Of a DNA stretch of 43,652 nucleotides, positions 28,727 through 37,454 are shown one piece after another (position 1 is the first letter of the stretch; each line of letters begins with the position of its first letter). The DNA is from Streptomyces sp. MUM 178J (GTDB lineage Bacteria > Actinomycetota > Actinomycetes > Streptomycetales > Streptomycetaceae). The notes under the pieces are model-generated. The model was not told the origin of the DNA and ran no database searches. It worked only from the letters and a program-made list of their open reading frames with translations. A program made the position numbers and the translations under genes. The stretch spans positions 1 to 43,652 of the forward strand of contig NZ_JADWYQ010000051.1 of NCBI RefSeq assembly GCF_022414575.1. Direction: 5' to 3'.

Positions 28727-31700
28727 ATGGACGTGCGCACCATGACGATTCGGCTCAGTGTCGTCGTACCCGTGTACAACGTGGCGGACTATCTCGACGC
28801 ATGTCTGCGGTCGTTGGCCGAGCAGACCCTCCAGGACCTGGAAGTCGTCATGGTCGACGACGGCTCCACCGACGAAAGCGCCGACATCGCCCGAGCGTTC
28901 GCCGCACGGGACGAGCGCTTCCGGCTGCTGTCACAGCGGAACGCGGGCCTCGGCGCGGCGCGCAACGCGGGCGCGCGCGAAGCCGTCGGCACGCATCTCG
29001 CCTTCGTCGACAGCGACGACATGGTCCCCGAGGACGCCTACGCGCGCATGGTGGCCTCGCTCGAAGGGTCCGGCTCGGACTTCGCCACGGGCAATGTGCT
29101 CCGGCTGCGGGCGAGCGGAAAGCGTGAGCAGTCGCCCATGTTCCGCGAGCCGATGGCGAAGACCCGCACCGCCACGCACGTCACCCGCCACTGGCCTCTC
29201 CTGTACGACCGGATCGCCTGCAACAAGGTCTTCCGCAGGGACTTCTGGGACCGGCACGGCTTCGCCTTCCCCGAGGGCGTGCTGTTCGAGGACATCCCGG
29301 TGATCGTGCCCGCGCACTTCCTCGCCGCCTCCGTCGACGTGCTGCACGACGCCGTCTACCTCTGGCGCGACCGGGACGGCTCCATCACCACCCGCAGGGC
29401 GCGCCCCGCGGCGGTGCGCGACCGGGCCCGTTCCGTGGCTTCGGCGAGCGGGTTCCTCGCCGCGCAGGCGAAGTGGCCGGAGGGGAAGCGCCGCTACGAC
29501 TCCAGCGCCCTGAGCAGCGATCTGAAGCTGTTCATGGACGTGCTGCCGGACGGCGACACGGAGTACCACCGGGCGTTCCTCGACCACGCCGGGGAGTTCG
29601 CCCGCGGGGTCGAGCAGTCCGTCCTCGACGGACTGCCGTTCACCCTGCGCGCCGCATGGCATCTCGTCCGCGAACGCCGTGTCGAAGAACTCCTCGCGCT
29701 CCTCGCCCACCAGCGGCAGAGCCGCGACGCCTTCCACATCCGCGGCCGCCGCGGCCCGCGCCTGCCCGGCGGAAAGACCTACGCCGAGCACCCCGCCGTG
29801 ACCGGCGGTCTGCCGAAGGACGTCAGCAGGCTGGGCACGTCCGACCTGCCTGTGCTGTCGGACGTGGTGGAAGCCGTGTGGCGTGACGGACGGCTGCGGC
29901 TGCGCGGCTACGCCTACGTCCGCAACCTCCCCGCCGAGCAGGGGAGCCGGCCCCGCGTCCTCGGCTGGCTGCGCCGCGGCCGGCGGAGGATCGCACCCCT
30001 GCGGCTGCAGCCGGCCGAACTGCCCGAGGCGACCGCCGCCTCCCGGCAGAGCCTGCACCGCTACGACCTGGCGGGCTTTGAGACGGTCGTCGACCCGGCC
30101 CGGCTCAGGCCGCGCGACGGACGCGCCGCGATCTGGAACGTGGAGGTCGGCGTCCTCGGCGGAGGGGTGCTGCGTCGGGGGCCGCTGCGCATGCGGGGCA
30201 ACCCGGCCCCGCCCGCCGTCCACTACCTCGACGACTCCACGCGCATCGTGCCCGAACTGTCCGGGAACAAGCTGCGCCTCAAGGCGGAACGCGTCCCCGC
30301 CCTCCTGACCGGCCACGGCCCCGCGGACGGCCGGGCCGCGTCCGTACGCATCACATGGCGGGGCCGACAGCCGTTCACCGCCCTCCGCATCGAGAACCGG
30401 CGCACCAAGGACGCTCACGAGGTGCCGGCCGACGCGGCGGACGAGGCGGGCGCATGGCGCGCCGATGTGCCCCTGGAGTTCTTCACGGCCGAGGGGGGCG
30501 AGGGCACGGGTGAAGAGGGCGCCGGCACGGCGGAGACGGCGACGCCATGGACCGTGCGGCTCGTCCGAGCCGACGGCGGACGGGTCGCGCTGGGCGTACG
30601 CGACAGCCTGGCCCCCGGCCGCTACCGCGTCCCCGACGGGCGCGAGCTCGTCCTCACCGCCACCGCCACCGCCGCCGGCAACCTCGCCCTCAGCAGCCAG
30701 TGCCCCCACCCGATCGCCGACGCCTTCGCCTGGACCTTCTCCGGCGGACTCGTCATCGAAGGCAGCCACCCCGCGCCCGCCGCCCGCCGCCCCGCGCCCG
30801 AGCTGGTGCTCCGGCACAGCGCCACCCAGGAGGAAGCGGTCTTCGACGTCCGGTTCGAGGAGGAAGGCCGGTTCCGCGCCGAGCTCACCCCCGCCGCGGT
30901 CGGCGTCGCCGACGGAACCGCCGGAGTCGGCGGAGTCGGCGGTGAGACGCCGCTGGCCGAGGGCCGCTGGTACCTCTTCTTCCGCGACACCGGCGAGCAC
31001 GACCCCGAGCGGTGCCGCCCCGTGCGACTCGCCGCCGCCAAGCACGCGGCAGTCCCCGCCGTACAGCGGGTCCGCGGCCGCGACTTCACCTTCACCCGGC
31101 GCTTCCACGACCAACTCGTCGTGGAGTCGGGGTCCGTGCTGGACGTGCGCGAGCGCGGAGCGTACGGCGAGCGGCGACTGCGCGAGCGGTACACGGCACT
31201 CAACCAGGCCCCCGAGCGCCGCGACACCCTGCTCTTCAGCAGCTTCGACGGCCGCCAGTACTCCGACTCGCCGCGCGCCGTGCACGAGGAGCTGCTCCGC
31301 CGCGGCAGCCCCTTCGAGCATCTGTGGACGGTACGCGACCAGCAGGTGCAACTGCCCGAAGGCGCCCGGCCCGTGGCGTTCGGCAGCACCGAGTGGCACG
31401 AGGCCCTGGCGTGTTCCCGGGCCGTCGTCACCAACACCCAGCTCCCCGAGTGGTACGAGCGAGGCACGGGCCGCTGCACCGTGCAGACGTGGCACGGCAC
31501 ACCGCTCAAGCGCATCGGGCGGGATCTGCTCGACACGGCCCAGGCCAACCGCCCGTACATCGACTCCCTGCCCCGCCGGGCCGCCCAGTGGGATCTGCTG
31601 ATCTCCCCGAACCGCTTCTCGACACCCATCCTGCGCCGGGCCTTCGGCTACGAGGGCGAGGTGCTGGAGTCCGGCTATCCGCGCAACGCACTGCTGCACA

Positions 31701-32305
31701 GCGAGGACCGGCACAAGATCGCGGCGAGTGTGCGGGAGCGTCTGGGCATCGAACCCGGCCGCACGGTCGTGCTCTACGCGCCCACCTGGCGCGAGGACCG
31801 CCCCAAGGGCGCCGGCCGCTACGCACTCGACCTGCGGCTCGACCTCGCCGCGGCGCGGCGCGCGCTGGGCGGCAGCCATGTGCTCCTCGTCCGCCGCCAC
31901 TACCTGGTCGGCGACCGGCTGCCGCAGACGGGCGGCTTCGTCCGCGACGTCTCCCGCTACCCGGACGTCGCCGAGCTGCTGCTCATCAGCGATGTGCTGG
32001 TGACCGACTACTCGTCTCTGATGTTCGACTTCGCCCACACGGGCAGGCCGATGCTGTTCCACACGTACGACCTGGAGCACTACCGGGACACGCTGCGCGG
32101 CTTCTACTTCGACTTCGAGGCGAAGGCGCCGGGGCCGTTGGTGCCGGACGGCGGGGAGCTGATCGAGGCGCTGAGGGAGCCGGAGGTGGCCGTTGCGGGG
32201 CATGTGCGGGCGTATGAGGCCTTTCGCGAGGCCTTCTGCGATCTGGATGACGGACGGGCCGCCGCGGTGGTAGCCGACCGGTTGCTCGACCTCACCTTCC
32301 CGTGA
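28727..32305 (+). CDS. GT2 glycosyltransferase fused to CDP-glycerol glycerophosphotransferase
   Basis: 1192 aa. The N-terminal GT2 domain (about 8-330) has VVVPVYNVADYLDACLRSL, donor motif RNAGLGAARNAG and an intact DxD (D95-S-D97-D98). A middle region of about 400 residues is beta-rich and resembles extensions in teichoic-acid enzymes. The C-terminal domain (about 830-1190) is TagB/TagF-type: TWHGTPLKRIG with His923, SGYPRN, VLYAPTWRE, RRHYLVG with the second His, and TDYSSLMFDF. It probably adds glycosyl and glycerol-phosphate or polyol-phosphate units to a wall glycopolymer at the inner membrane face. Starts at 28727 or 28742 both lack a strong ribosome binding site. Of the three related proteins here, only this one keeps both catalytic halves intact. 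Confidence 0.88.
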   Translation: MDVRTMTIRLSVVVPVYNVADYLDACLRSLAEQTLQDLEVVMVDDGSTDESADIARAFAARDERFRLLSQRNAGLGAARNAGAREAVGTHLAFVDSDDMVPEDAYARMVASLEGSGSDFATGNVLRLRASGKREQSPMFREPMAKTRTATHVTRHWPLLYDRIACNKVFRRDFWDRHGFAFPEGVLFEDIPVIVPAHFLAASVDVLHDAVYLWRDRDGSITTRRARPAAVRDRARSVASASGFLAAQAKWPEGKRRYDSSALSSDLKLFMDVLPDGDTEYHRAFLDHAGEFARGVEQSVLDGLPFTLRAAWHLVRERRVEELLALLAHQRQSRDAFHIRGRRGPRLPGGKTYAEHPAVTGGLPKDVSRLGTSDLPVLSDVVEAVWRDGRLRLRGYAYVRNLPAEQGSRPRVLGWLRRGRRRIAPLRLQPAELPEATAASRQSLHRYDLAGFETVVDPARLRPRDGRAAIWNVEVGVLGGGVLRRGPLRMRGNPAPPAVHYLDDSTRIVPELSGNKLRLKAERVPALLTGHGPADGRAASVRITWRGRQPFTALRIENRRTKDAHEVPADAADEAGAWRADVPLEFFTAEGGEGTGEEGAGTAETATPWTVRLVRADGGRVALGVRDSLAPGRYRVPDGRELVLTATATAAGNLALSSQCPHPIADAFAWTFSGGLVIEGSHPAPAARRPAPELVLRHSATQEEAVFDVRFEEEGRFRAELTPAAVGVADGTAGVGGVGGETPLAEGRWYLFFRDTGEHDPERCRPVRLAAAKHAAVPAVQRVRGRDFTFTRRFHDQLVVESGSVLDVRERGAYGERRLRERYTALNQAPERRDTLLFSSFDGRQYSDSPRAVHEELLRRGSPFEHLWTVRDQQVQLPEGARPVAFGSTEWHEALACSRAVVTNTQLPEWYERGTGRCTVQTWHGTPLKRIGRDLLDTAQANRPYIDSLPRRAAQWDLLISPNRFSTPILRRAFGYEGEVLESGYPRNALLHSEDRHKIAASVRERLGIEPGRTVVLYAPTWREDRPKGAGRYALDLRLDLAAARRALGGSHVLLVRRHYLVGDRLPQTGGFVRDVSRYPDVAELLLISDVLVTDYSSLMFDFAHTGRPMLFHTYDLEHYRDTLRGFYFDFEAKAPGPLVPDGGELIEALREPEVAVAGHVRAYEAFREAFCDLDDGRAAAVVADRLLDLTFP

Positions 32306-32693: not shown

Positions 32694-32815
32694 GGCCCGG
32701 TGTTCACCGCGGCGGCGGGATGACGGAGCCCATGACCCGGGGGCCCTGGTGCTCAGCGTGGTGCGTGGGCCCTGGTGTTCACCGCGGTGGCGGGACGACG
32801 GAGCCCACGACCCGC
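32694..32815. repeat. 75-bp-spaced direct repeat duplicating a gene 3' end
   Basis: GGTGTTCACCGCGG followed by CGGGA(T/C)GACGGAGCCCA occurs near 32699 and 32774, offset by 75 bp (GGTGTTCACC at both, 36 of about 40 bases alike). The right copy contains the stop and last 11 codons of the minus-strand gene. The left copy would encode RVMGSVIPPPR plus stop in the same frame, against RVVGSVVPPPR in the gene. A weaker third partial copy lies between (GGGGGCCCTGGTGCTCAGCG). Confidence 0.8.
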
Positions 32816-35097
32816 GGCTCGGCCGGCTCCTCCGCCGCGGCGGCCGTCTGCTGGTGCGGGACGGCGGCGAGCGGCCCCGCGGCTCCCCGCTCCGCCGGAG
32901 GCGCCACCGGCAGCACCGTCTCCTCGCCGAGCAGCACATGGCGCACCACTCGCTCCGCGGCCCGCCCGTCGTCGAAGGCGCAGAACCGCTCCCGGAACGC
33001 GGCACGCAGCGTGCGGCTCCGTTCCCCGTCCCAGGAGCCGTCCGTGAAGGCCCGTACGACGTCCTCGGTCGTGCGCGTCACCTCGCCCGGGGTGTCGCCG
33101 GGCAGGCCCGACAGCAGGTCGAAGGTGACGCCGCGGACCGCGCGGTAGATCTCCCAGTCGGGGGCGTGGATGATGATCGGACGGTCCAGCAGGGCGTAGT
33201 CGAACATCAGCGACGAGTAGTCGGTGATCAGCGCGTCGGCCGCAAGGAACAGCTCCTCGACGCCGGGGTGGCCGGAGACGTCGATCAGCCCCGAGCGGCC
33301 GTCCAGCCCGAAGGGGCCGTCCAGCTCCGACCCGTCGTGGAAGTAGTGGGCGCGGACCAGGAACACCGTGTCCTCGCCGCGTTCGCCCAGTTCCCGCACC
33401 ACCCGGTCCAGATCGAGCCGGCAGCTGAAGGTCCGCTCGTAGTCGCGGAAGGTCGGCGCGTAGAGCACGGCTCGCTGTCCCCGGGCGAGGCCGAGCCGCT
33501 CCCGCGCCGCCTCGACCTCGTCGGGGCCCGCGTTGACCAGGACGTCATTGCGCGGATAGCCGGACTCCAGATGGCGCACGGCCCCGGGGTAGGCCCGTGA
33601 CCAGACCTCCGTGGAGTGCGGATTGGACGACAGGCTGAGATCCCACCGGTCGACGCGGCGCAGCAGGCCGCGGAAGTTCATGCCCTGCGCCGCGGCCGGG
33701 TAGTCCTGCTGGCCCATGCCCATCACCTTCAGCGGAGTGCCGTGGTGGGTCATCACATGGATCTGGCCGCGCCGTTTGACCAGGTGGTTGTGGAAGTTGA
33801 CGTTGCTGATGAAGTACGTGCCGCGGGCGAGCACCGACCAATAGCGGAGGGTGCCGGGCACCACATGGTCCACGCCCGGCGGCAGCCCGGCGGCCGCGGC
33901 CTTGGCGGAGACGATCCACACCCCGCGGATGTGCGGGGCCAGTTCGGCCGCCTTGCGGTGGACCGCCGCCGGATTGCAGCTCACGCCGCGGTTCCAGTAC
34001 GCGGTGTAGACGGCCAGCCGCCGGTCGAGCGGACGCAGCCGCTGCAACCGGTAGTACAGCGGCGTCAGTCGCCGTACGGCACGGGCGCGGGCCGCGGCCG
34101 TGAGCGTCAGCAGCCCGCGGCGGGCCGCGAACGCCGCGTCGAGTCCCGTGAGCAGCGCCCCCCGGCCGCCGCACAGCAGTCGCAGCCGCAGCGCCGCGAA
34201 GCCGCGCCGCTGCTGGTGCCCGTGTGGCCGGTGCACCCGGCAGAACGCGGCGACCGCCCGCCTGTAGCGGCGTCTTTGGGTCGCCCTCGGATACGCCTCC
34301 AGCAGCTCCCGGGCCGCCACGTCGAACAGCGCGCCGTGCACCTTTGCGAAGCGCGGTGTGTCGCGCAGCGCCGTGAACAGCTCTCCGAACTGTTCGATGA
34401 GGTCGGCAGACGACGTCTCGGCCTCTTCCGGTTCGGCGACCGCCGGGAGATGGCGCTGTACGCGGTGTTCCACGCACGGCGTCGGCAGCACGGCGACCGA
34501 CTCCGCGGTGACCAGGGTGGCGAGGGCGTACATCCGGTCGCCCTCCGGTCCGGACGCGAAGCCGATCCGCTGTGCGCGATGGACGTCGCTGCGCACGGCA
34601 CGGTTCCAGCACACCGCCGCGACGCCCAGAAGTTCGGGGTGTTCGGCGAGGGTGCACACCTGTGAGGCGCCCGTCTCACGCAGCAGCTGGAGCGAGCGCG
34701 TGGGCTGCGGAACGCCGCGGAACGGGGTGCGCAGATGCCCAAAGAGCAGGACCTCCGGATCCTTGGCCGACTCCAGCCGCTCGGCGATGCGCTCCAGTGC
34801 GCCGGGCAGCAGCACATGGGCGCCTTCGAGGAAGAGGAGATAGTCGCCTGTGGCCCGCTCCGCTCCTGCGGTGCGGCGGTCCTCGGCGCCCGCGGGCTCC
34901 GGCAGATGCACTGCCCGCAGGCGTGGGTCGCCGTCGGCGATCTCGTCGAGCAGCCGGTCCGAGCCGTCCGGGGACCCGTCGGCCACGCCGATGACTTCGA
35001 TGTCCCGGAAGGACTGCGAGAGCACGGATCGGAGGCATTCCCGCAGGGTTCCGCGCACACGGCGGACGGGGACGATGATGCTGAGGCGGGGCGGCAT
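32779..35097 (-). CDS. GT2-like domain (degenerate) fused to CDP-glycerol glycerophosphotransferase
   Basis: 772 aa; ATG at 35097, 51 nt after the neighbouring paralogue's stop. The N-terminus keeps the GT2 opening (LSIIVPVRRVRGTLRECLRS). Where active relatives have D-x-D-D it reads FLEGAH at 89-94, and the donor RNAGLGPARNAG segment is replaced by PEPAGAEDRRTAGAERA. The GT2 half is therefore probably inactive. The C-terminal half is intact: THHGTPLKVMG with His452, ESGYPRNDVL, VLYAPTFRDY, LVRAHYF and TDYSSLMFDY. The C-terminal tail is Ala/Pro-rich and ends in the duplicated 75-bp repeat. It likely polymerises or primes glycerol-phosphate-type wall polymer. Confidence 0.88.
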   Translation of the reverse strand: MPPRLSIIVPVRRVRGTLRECLRSVLSQSFRDIEVIGVADGSPDGSDRLLDEIADGDPRLRAVHLPEPAGAEDRRTAGAERATGDYLLFLEGAHVLLPGALERIAERLESAKDPEVLLFGHLRTPFRGVPQPTRSLQLLRETGASQVCTLAEHPELLGVAAVCWNRAVRSDVHRAQRIGFASGPEGDRMYALATLVTAESVAVLPTPCVEHRVQRHLPAVAEPEEAETSSADLIEQFGELFTALRDTPRFAKVHGALFDVAARELLEAYPRATQRRRYRRAVAAFCRVHRPHGHQQRRGFAALRLRLLCGGRGALLTGLDAAFAARRGLLTLTAAARARAVRRLTPLYYRLQRLRPLDRRLAVYTAYWNRGVSCNPAAVHRKAAELAPHIRGVWIVSAKAAAAGLPPGVDHVVPGTLRYWSVLARGTYFISNVNFHNHLVKRRGQIHVMTHHGTPLKVMGMGQQDYPAAAQGMNFRGLLRRVDRWDLSLSSNPHSTEVWSRAYPGAVRHLESGYPRNDVLVNAGPDEVEAARERLGLARGQRAVLYAPTFRDYERTFSCRLDLDRVVRELGERGEDTVFLVRAHYFHDGSELDGPFGLDGRSGLIDVSGHPGVEELFLAADALITDYSSLMFDYALLDRPIIIHAPDWEIYRAVRGVTFDLLSGLPGDTPGEVTRTTEDVVRAFTDGSWDGERSRTLRAAFRERFCAFDDGRAAERVVRHVLLGEETVLPVAPPAERGAAGPLAAVPHQQTAAAAEEPAEPRVVGSVVPPPR

Positions 35098-35147
35098 GCG
35101 CGGGCTCTTTCTCAAGGGTCGGGCGGACGGAGGGGACGCTGTGGGGC

Positions 35148-37454
35148 TCACGGCCCGGGGACGGTGGACACGGCGGTCGAGGCGTCGCGCTCTGCGCCCT
35201 GTGCCTGGTGGGGCAGCACCCGCGGCCGGTGCGCCGGCGACGGGGCCGGCCGGCGCTCGGCGAGGGGGACGACGGCCGGCAGCCCCGCCGTCTCGTTCAG
35301 GAAGACGCGGCGCACCACGCGCTCCGCGGCGAGCCCGTCGTCGTTCGGGCAGAACCGCTCTCGGAAGGAGGCGCGCAGCTGCGCCGAGCGTGAGCCCTGC
35401 CAGTGCCCGCTGGTGAAGATGTCGATCAGCTCGTCCTCGTCGCGGGCGACCGCTCCCGGCGGTGTGGCCCGTACGTCGAAGTACAGCCCGCGGGCGGCCT
35501 CGTACGCCTCCCAGTCGCCGGTGTGCAGCACGATGGGCCGGTCCAGGTTGGCGTAGTCGAACATCAGGGACGAGTAGTCGGTGAGCAGCGTGTCGGAGGC
35601 GAGGCACAGCTCCTCGACGCTGGGGTGGTCCGTTACGTCGAGGATGCGCGGCGGCTTCCCGGTGGCGGCCGGGGCCGGCAGCCCGTCGCCGAGGTGGTGC
35701 GAGCGGGTGAGCAGTGTGAAACGGGGGCCGAGCGCCGTCGCGAGCCGCTCCAGGTCCAGCGGGGAGCGCTGGGTGCGGCGGTAGTCGCGGTGGGCAGGCG
35801 CGTACAGCACGGCCACGGCGTCCTCCGGCAGGCCCAGGGACGCGCGCGCCGCGGCCACGTCGTCGGCGTCGGCGCGCTGGAACACGTCGTTGCGCGGAGC
35901 GCCGTACTCCAGGACGGTGGCGGCGGCCGGGTAGACCCGCTCCCACACCAGCGTGGAGTGTCGGTTCGCGGAGAGCGAGTAGTCCCATGTGTCGGCGTCG
36001 GCGAGGAGCTGCTCGAAATCCGTGCGACCGCCCGCCGCCGGGCGCTCCTGGAGGTCGAGTCCCATGGACTTCAATGGGGTGCCGCAGTGGGTCTGGAGGA
36101 TGATCTGCCCGCGCCGTTTGGCCGGCCGCCGGTCGAGGCCGGTGTCGCTGACCAGGCCGGTGTTGCCGACCAGGTAGGTGGCGCGGGCCAGGGCGGTGAG
36201 GTAGGCGAAGCCGCCGGGCCGCAGCCGGCGGGCGGCCGCGGGGACGGTGTGCGCGTGCTCGGGGTCGCAGACCCAGGCGGTGCGCAGCCTCGGGACGAGT
36301 TCCCGGGCTTTCGCCTCGATCGCGGCGGGGTGGCAGGTGTAGCCGCGGCTCCCGTACGCGGAGAAGACGGCGTGTCCCGGCCGCAGCGGCAGCCGGAGCT
36401 GGATGCGGTAGTGCAGCCGCAGCGCGGCGGCGCGCAGCGCCTGTACGCCCGTGGCCGCGGCCCTGCGCGTCCGGGCGCGCAGCCGGTTCAGGCTCCGCAG
36501 GGTGGTGAAGGTGCGGCGCAGACCGAGTCCGAGGAGGGCGTGGCGCAGCCGGTCGCGGCCCGCGGGGGCCGCGCCGGGACAGCGGTGGCGGCGGCAGTGG
36601 GCGCGGGCCCGGCGGAAGAACTCGGGGCGGCTGCCGCGCGGCAGCCGCCCCGGGGAGGCGGCGATCGCCGCGAAGTGGTCCAGCATCCGGCGGAAGAGGA
36701 TGGGCCGCCACCGGGCGAGTGCGGGCCGGTCGGCGAGGAAGGCGAAGACCCGGTCGTACTGGTCGAAGACGTCGAAGTGCCTGCGGTCGGCGGTGGCCAG
36801 GATGTTGCCGCCCTGGCGGCGCTGCCGGTAGTGGACGCAGACCTGGTCGAGTGTGGCGAGGGAGTCGGCGGTCAGCAGCGCCGGATAGGTCCAGGGGGTG
36901 TCCTCGTAGTAGCCGGGTGGGAAGGTCAGGCCCTCGCGTTCGATGAACTCCCGCTTGTACGCCTTGTTCCACACGACCATCAGCAGTTTCAGCAGTTCCG
37001 GGCGGTCGGTGAGCCGGAAGGGGGCCGGGCCCTGTTCGGTGAGGAGGGCGGCGAGCTTGTTGCGCACCGTCCGGCCCGTCCAGTAGGTGCGGGCGTAGTC
37101 AAAGACCAGCACCTCGGGTGCACCGGTCGCCTCGATCCGGTCGGCGATGGCGCGCAGTGCGCCGGGGACCAGGGTGTCGTCGCCGTCGAGGAAGATGACG
37201 TAGTCGCCGTGGGCCTGCTTGAGTCCGGCGTTGCGGGCCGGGCCGAGGCCCGCGTTCCGCGGCAGATGCACGGGGCGCACCCGGGGGTCGCGGGCCGCGA
37301 ACTCGTCGATGATCGCTCCGCAGGCGTCGGGGGAGCAGTCGTCGACGGCGATCAGTTCGAGACCGTCGTAGCTCTGGCTCAGCACCGACTCCAGGCATGC
37401 GTGCAGATAGGCCTGGACCTTGAACGCGGGGACGATGACGCTGAACCGGGGCAC
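35148..37454 (-). CDS. GT2 glycosyltransferase fused to CDP-glycerol glycerophosphotransferase-like domain (HGTP His to Cys)
   Basis: 768 aa from GTG 37454; GGA lies about 8 nt upstream, a weak site. The GT2 half is complete: FSVIVPAFKVQAYLHACLES, AVDDCSPDACG, RNAGLGPARNAGL and DxDD at D90-G-D92-D93. The C-terminal half has YSLSANRHST, APRNDVF, VLYAPAHRDY, TRSHHLG and TDYSSLMFDY, but the HGTP motif is THCGTPLKSMG. Cys457 thus replaces the histidine found essential in TagF-like enzymes. The polymerase half may be inactive, altered or a lectin-like remnant. It is the first gene of a likely two-gene operon with the paralogue at 32779-35097. Confidence 0.87.
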   Translation of the reverse strand: MPRFSVIVPAFKVQAYLHACLESVLSQSYDGLELIAVDDCSPDACGAIIDEFAARDPRVRPVHLPRNAGLGPARNAGLKQAHGDYVIFLDGDDTLVPGALRAIADRIEATGAPEVLVFDYARTYWTGRTVRNKLAALLTEQGPAPFRLTDRPELLKLLMVVWNKAYKREFIEREGLTFPPGYYEDTPWTYPALLTADSLATLDQVCVHYRQRRQGGNILATADRRHFDVFDQYDRVFAFLADRPALARWRPILFRRMLDHFAAIAASPGRLPRGSRPEFFRRARAHCRRHRCPGAAPAGRDRLRHALLGLGLRRTFTTLRSLNRLRARTRRAAATGVQALRAAALRLHYRIQLRLPLRPGHAVFSAYGSRGYTCHPAAIEAKARELVPRLRTAWVCDPEHAHTVPAAARRLRPGGFAYLTALARATYLVGNTGLVSDTGLDRRPAKRRGQIILQTHCGTPLKSMGLDLQERPAAGGRTDFEQLLADADTWDYSLSANRHSTLVWERVYPAAATVLEYGAPRNDVFQRADADDVAAARASLGLPEDAVAVLYAPAHRDYRRTQRSPLDLERLATALGPRFTLLTRSHHLGDGLPAPAATGKPPRILDVTDHPSVEELCLASDTLLTDYSSLMFDYANLDRPIVLHTGDWEAYEAARGLYFDVRATPPGAVARDEDELIDIFTSGHWQGSRSAQLRASFRERFCPNDDGLAAERVVRRVFLNETAGLPAVVPLAERRPAPSPAHRPRVLPHQAQGAERDASTAVSTVPGP

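Follow-up and report, generated by a model that had tools for sequence, protein, structure and literature searches.

The locus described here raises the question of whether two neighboring fusion proteins, each apparently damaged in the opposite half, make up a single split enzyme or are paralogs that have specialized separately. Both genes, P0002 and P0001, lie in a stretch of 43,652 nt from Streptomyces sp. MUM 178J (contig NZ_JADWYQ010000051.1), which in its entirety we call the window (Table 1). An earlier note on this DNA had placed two co-directional reading frames at exactly these positions, leaving their strand unstated, had assigned a GT2 and a TagF-type domain to each, and had proposed that the two products, each supplying one active half, form a heteromeric enzyme; homologues intact in both halves, or either gene occurring alone, were what it named as contrary evidence. 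Its domain assignment is borne out by Pfam, in which PF00535 (GT2) and PF04464 (Glyphos_transf) match both proteins far over the cut-off (for PF04464, 387.8 bits in P0001 and 353.8 bits in P0002, with a cut-off of 22.1), and its spacing of 51 nt is to be corrected as in the table.

Table 1. Fusion genes of the window and the gap between the paired ones.
Feature	Coordinates	Strand	Description
P0002 (family A), GT2 + TagF-like fusion	35148..37454	minus	768 aa, GTG start; upstream gene
P0001 (family K), GT2 + TagF-like fusion	32779..35097	minus	772 aa, ATG start; downstream gene
Gap between the co-directional P0002 and P0001 genes	35098..35147	minus	50 nt, by coordinates
Third fusion gene (family E), GT2 + TagF-like	28727..32305	plus	1192 aa; convergent; both active sites intact

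The third fusion protein of the window carries the motifs VDSDDM, VFEDIP, QTWHGTPLK and VRRHYL (and a weak, sub-cut-off match to TarS_linker), and two more fusion copies on contigs C31 and C34 have both motifs visible in their sequences, so that the host genome has other possible sources of either activity. A family D gene was not found in the window. Beside the locus lie NAD-GDH, secA and a two-component/lpqB cluster. Genes for two ABC permeases of sugar type, for a solute-binding protein and for an EccC/FtsK-like protein lie upstream of P0002 (37680-43576), every one of them on the minus strand.

In P0002 we find DGDD at residues 90-93, RNAGLGPARNAGL and Cys457 within THCGTP, the GT2 motifs (DGDD, and YYEDTPW from residue 182) being intact. 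In P0001, EGAH at 91-94 replaces DxDD, and His452 stands within HHGTP in an intact TagF half. The residue numbers in the earlier note were exact, and its supposition that Cys457 and EGAH occupy catalytic positions agrees with HMMER alignments to Staphylococcus epidermidis TagF (3l7i, 3l7j, 3l7m), in which Cys457 aligns with His444 and EGAH with DADD; 3l7j and 3l7m themselves differ from 3l7i at His444 and His584. The second TagF histidine (H584) is present in both proteins, and the catalytic pair of PF04464 (H444, H584) is thus complete in P0001, while P0002 has Cys457 for the first of them. The GT2 metal motif DxD(D) and base Asp are both found in P0002; P0001 keeps of these only the Asp at the base position (D185 of P0002), and also retains the Asp that corresponds to D39 of P0002. 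The alignments support the reading that each protein has one apparently intact and one apparently damaged active site, and neither is intact at both, as 60 of 98 family A proteins are. Of the relatives seen, Streptomyces sp. PR69 is the nearest (83% identity in P0002, 87% in P0001), and it has the same gene order with the histidine intact. The TagF half of P0002 also has six inserted residues and a number of changes clustered near Cys457. We reject a sequencing error at Cys457, since its codon departs from that of PR69 at two bases amid this cluster.

Homologue searches for both proteins scored the 8000 candidates sharing most words and listed the best 120, lists which favor close, His-kept proteins because only the best-scoring candidates enter them. 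Among the best 120 homologues of P0002, itself counted, DxDD and base Asp are intact in 120/120 and the TagF catalytic histidine is kept in 115/120. Homologues intact in both halves, the first of the contrary observations, are therefore common among the best-matching P0002-type proteins. The other four losses among these 120 are to Gln or Ala; Cys at position 457 occurs in no other sequence seen, one of the 2 member sequences of the window protein's own 90% cluster (P0003) being among those seen. The source records of several family A orthologues (P0008, P0010, P0040, P0045 and others) give the name 'CRISPR system Cascade subunit CasB' to proteins with GT2 and Glyphos_transf domains, a propagated error.

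The family of P0001 is more uniform at the corresponding positions. Across 60 P0001-type proteins, 57-97% identical to P0001, DxDD is intact in none and both TagF histidines are present in all, so the EGAH-type loss characterizes the family as a whole. A conserved alternative metal site at the histidine of EGAH is ruled out, the fourth position being H, Y, Q, F, L, I or S among the 60 relatives. Because an Asp is retained at the D39 position in 59/60 and at the base position in 14/60 (P0001 among them), a 'dead GT2' half in family K is read from the metal motif, and because the GT2 half of P0001 is in addition under purifying selection, loss of GT2 activity in K is unproven. These same observations would be expected if the altered sites were changed rather than dead, with Cys457 in P0002 or EGAH in P0001 supporting a different transfer chemistry or donor. 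The replacing residues are, however, unconserved in either family, and alanine mutants of the equivalent residues in Cps1B and Cps7D gave no polymer (PMC5974469); we regard a change of chemistry as the least probable of the explanations weighed here.

If P0001 and P0002 were obligate partners in a heteromeric, split bifunctional polymerase, with glycosylation done by one chain and polyol-phosphate transfer by the other, the pair and its reciprocal losses should recur together. The co-directional genes, their close spacing and the complementary motif damage speak for such an arrangement, as does the ability of the domains of such enzymes to act in trans (PMC5974469). P0001-type genes were found in 16 of 392 Streptomyces genomes (E of 1e-228 or better). 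In 7 of the 16, the window included, the gene directly follows a P0002-type gene; in the remaining 9 there is no P0002-type gene within the fetched stretch. Conversely, P0002-type genes have no P0001-type neighbor in 96/98 loci within the stretch read, counts to be taken with the proviso that some fetched stretches stop at contig ends and a neighbor may be missed. Either gene alone is therefore frequent, contrary to what the heteromer proposal would lead one to expect. The 392-genome sample, the named loci and the window together yielded 16 pair loci, of which 14 were left as distinct once two identical ones had been removed, and the P0002-type protein keeps its histidine in 13 of these 14; the window alone has lost it, leaving reciprocal loss, supposed to be conserved across genomes, in 1/14. 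The histidine is lost in 1/14 proteins with a P0001-type neighbor vs 37/96 without (Fisher p 0.03, kinship ignored), so that a P0001-type neighbor goes, if anything, with keeping the P0002-type histidine.

These observations make an obligate heteromer very unlikely, and a dedicated P0001-P0002 complex is neither required nor indicated by the comparative data. What stands of the earlier interpretation is one intact and one damaged site per protein; a conserved reciprocal pair or obligate heteromer does not. The comparison suggests that the exact reciprocal match is a particularity of the MUM 178J strain, whereas loss of one half recurs across the enzyme family, and we favor, as part of our best explanation and with the same degree of confidence, a lineage-specific coincidence in the P0002/P0001 pairing over a conserved heteromeric enzyme, the halves being complementary in effect.

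The recurrence of one-half loss becomes apparent in a wider sample. A match was obtained in 127 of 150 genomes; besides the window itself we took the best place of 96 others and one more, giving 97 fetched places in all, each of 831 bits or more. This 150-genome sample overlaps in species with the 392-genome, named-locus and class-wide samples, and counts are kept separate save for the 14 pair loci. On a tree of 238 TagF domains from 97 loci around P0002-type genes, family A has 98 members, of which 60 keep the histidine and 38 have a damaged TagF site; three basal rows (L127, L130, L131) are probably another paralog, like the C31 copy, and without them 57 of 95 keep the histidine and 38 have lost it. 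GT2 sites are intact in 96/98; the damage extends to both halves in 2 of the 38 His-lost proteins. In 43 loci families A, B and C follow one another on the same strand, an order held in 43/43. Both TagF histidines are present in 44/44 family B proteins. Family B mostly has Cys for the first Asp of the VDD motif; by analogy with SpsA, the second is the important one. Family B as GT2-dead is ruled out: its score is low, yet DxDD and base Asp are intact in 39/43. Family C has the GT2 half intact in 44/44 and the TagF site damaged in 42 of 43 scorable proteins, Gln or Arg replacing the histidine.

The lone His-bearing family C protein among the 43 (L125 4221-6443, HTHHGTPLK) could represent a retained ancestral state, a reversal or gene conversion. 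In L096 (10860-13646) a B-like GT2 half and a C-like TagF half (HTPQGTPLK) share a single open frame, which suggests a B-C fusion by deletion. Families D and E form a second set of neighboring fusion proteins (for example L038 1103-7566), E being intact at both sites. Family D, adjoining E, has both TagF histidines in 20/20 (motif QTWHGSAYK); its GT2 motifs are absent in 10/20, and the GT2 half was unrecognised in the other 10/20, which are hence not counted as dead.

Of the 215 proteins scorable for both halves, only 2 are damaged in both (Fisher p 0.02, kinship ignored). The named loci give a similar division, the histidine being kept in 68/80 A proteins and 0/40 C proteins. In a class-wide search with a family C protein, 26 of 296 genomes matched, and the five matches outside the genus (L289, L290, L292, L294, L299) reach no more than 49% identity, each with the histidine kept. 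That opposite halves appear to be dying in neighboring paralogs is supported within the genus sample. A B or C neighbor as the driver of histidine loss in A is ruled out: kinship-aware independent pairs have no direction, despite Fisher p of 0.006 and 0.002.

The histidine of family A has been lost repeatedly. A tree built from the region before the TagF domain, and thus without the TagF half itself, requires no fewer than 12 changes (14 if losses are irreversible), and ten residues (Q, R, E, P, A, Y, N, D, G and C) have replaced it. Further damage accompanies the first: the second histidine is lost in 13/38 His-lost vs 0/60 His-kept proteins, and the lysine of GTPLK in 19/38 vs 1/60. Where GT2 identity is 80-85%, TagF identity is 80% in pairs that keep the histidine (n=113) and 70% in pairs that have lost it (n=178). 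In close pairs the TagF half has a median dN/dS of 0.43 if the histidine is lost vs 0.21 if it is kept (98 and 114 pairs, non-independent); for the GT2 half of the same non-independent pairs it is 0.26 vs 0.19, so that relaxation in family A reaches somewhat beyond the TagF half. Across A-B-C loci (903 locus pairs) identities of GT2 vs TagF halves are 81% vs 73% in A, 71% vs 78% in B and 73% each in C. Between the window and PR69, dN/dS for P0002 is 0.435 in the TagF half and 0.244 in the GT2 half, and for P0001 it is 0.299 in the TagF half and 0.267 in the GT2 half; because the linkers of both proteins, at 0.45 each, resemble the TagF half of P0002, this single pair cannot alone prove relaxation. 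Taken together, the damaged halves are relaxed or repurposed, yet they are no free pseudogene sequence.

A simpler account would have the TagF half of P0002 merely decaying, made redundant by other copies (P0001, E, C31, C34), with no division of labor at all. The insertion and changes clustered around Cys457, the relaxed dN/dS among His-lost A proteins and the fact that three further fusion proteins encoded by the genome look intact at both sites all speak for decay. On the other hand, the reading frame and the remaining TagF half are kept with dN/dS well under 1, and His-lost TagF halves persist in many species, in conserved form in family C. Genomes in which the A protein has lost the histidine and stands without a B neighbor bear on this directly. 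There are 14, the window's own among them; the other 13 were searched for PF04464, and in 3 of the 13 the His-lost A protein is the only match. One of these genomes is a single contig and 99% complete (G091), the second is 78% complete (G079) and the third is fragmented (G028); the A protein of the third is damaged in both halves and may be a decayed gene for that reason. We consider mere decay rather unlikely, though less so than either a heteromer or a change of chemistry.

The sole-copy proteins also count against obligate dependence on a partner, and the TagF half of A in such genomes may be a non-catalytic module. In two of them (L109 8816-11122 in G091, L112 8764-11190 in G079) Ala or Tyr stands in place of the catalytic histidine, with high scores (606 and 608 bits) for the remainder of the TagF half.

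One-way specialization of fused GT2/TagF enzymes is to our mind the best reading, with a probability of roughly 0.6. P0001 and P0002 would be paralogous enzymes of a Streptomyces wall-glycopolymer locus, each with an N-terminal GT-A/GT2 domain and a C-terminal TagF-like polyol-phosphate transferase, and after duplication such families would drift toward using one half. Family A, to which P0002 belongs, would be GT2-led, keeping its GT2 site and losing the TagF histidine many times; family K, that of P0001, would be TagF-led, with the GT2 metal motif gone from every member seen. Both fates would then meet in one operon in MUM 178J, where P0002 is the probable sugar transferase and P0001 the probable polyol-phosphate transferase, alternating on one chain in trans or acting on separate acceptors. 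Catalytic activity, donors, acceptors and cooperation are what we infer here, from observed motif states, their recurrence, the relaxed TagF half and gene order.

Engineered enzymes offer a precedent for action in trans. Mutants of the GT-A/TagF-like polymerase Cps1B dead in either domain are polymer-less alone and reach wild-type level together (PMC5974469), and P0001 and P0002 could work likewise. Cps1B has the same two kinds of domain per chain and needs DxD and two TagF histidines, although its mutants were engineered from a wild type intact at both sites, and it has a TPR domain (PMC5974469), of which Pfam matched none in P0001 or P0002. S. epidermidis TagF (3l7i) likewise has an N-terminal GT-A-like and a C-terminal TagF domain, with an alignment spanning both, but it has both motifs, is a glycerol-phosphate polymerase by annotation and is a distant relative. 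A useful non-catalytic TagF domain has a precedent in the TagF-like transition transferase Cps7A, inactive mutants of which still stimulate long-chain synthesis (PMC11666461); those, however, are engineered mutants of a capsule system with separate polypeptides.

With its NAD-GDH, secA and two-component/lpqB neighbors, the window locus is presumably the same chromosomal region as SCO2981-2983/SCO2997 of S. coelicolor, genes that we take, as a guess from synteny, to be families A, B, C and E. They are named among the wall-teichoic-acid glycosyltransferases of that species in a passage that contains no motif analysis (PMC3937824). A literature search found no description of these reciprocal motif losses, an absence that is unproven since most subscription papers lay outside its reach. 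While the enzyme families are known, what is new is that tandem paralogs have each lost one half, and opposite ones.

Streptomyces wall glycopolymers vary between species. A glycan on wall teichoic acid is an umbrella-toxin receptor (PMC13274773). The literature search turned up no assignment of enzymes to individual bonds for the loci treated here. As a tentative extension, which we hold to be possible and clearly less probable than specialization itself, Streptomyces wall-polymer loci may be assembly lines of fused GT2/TagF paralogs with catalysis parcelled out among them: K, and perhaps D, would transfer polyol phosphate only, C and many A proteins would be glycosyltransferases only, a disabled half would be kept to bind polymer or dock a partner, and the live sites would set the repeating unit, with the window pair as the minimal two-gene case in trans. 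The live and dead sites of each array would then predict which sugar and polyol-phosphate transfers are possible in a strain. Such arrays would also be the natural equivalent of the trans-complementation engineered in Cps1B, and they include a tandem paralog, C, with a TagF half still conserved after loss of its catalytic histidine.
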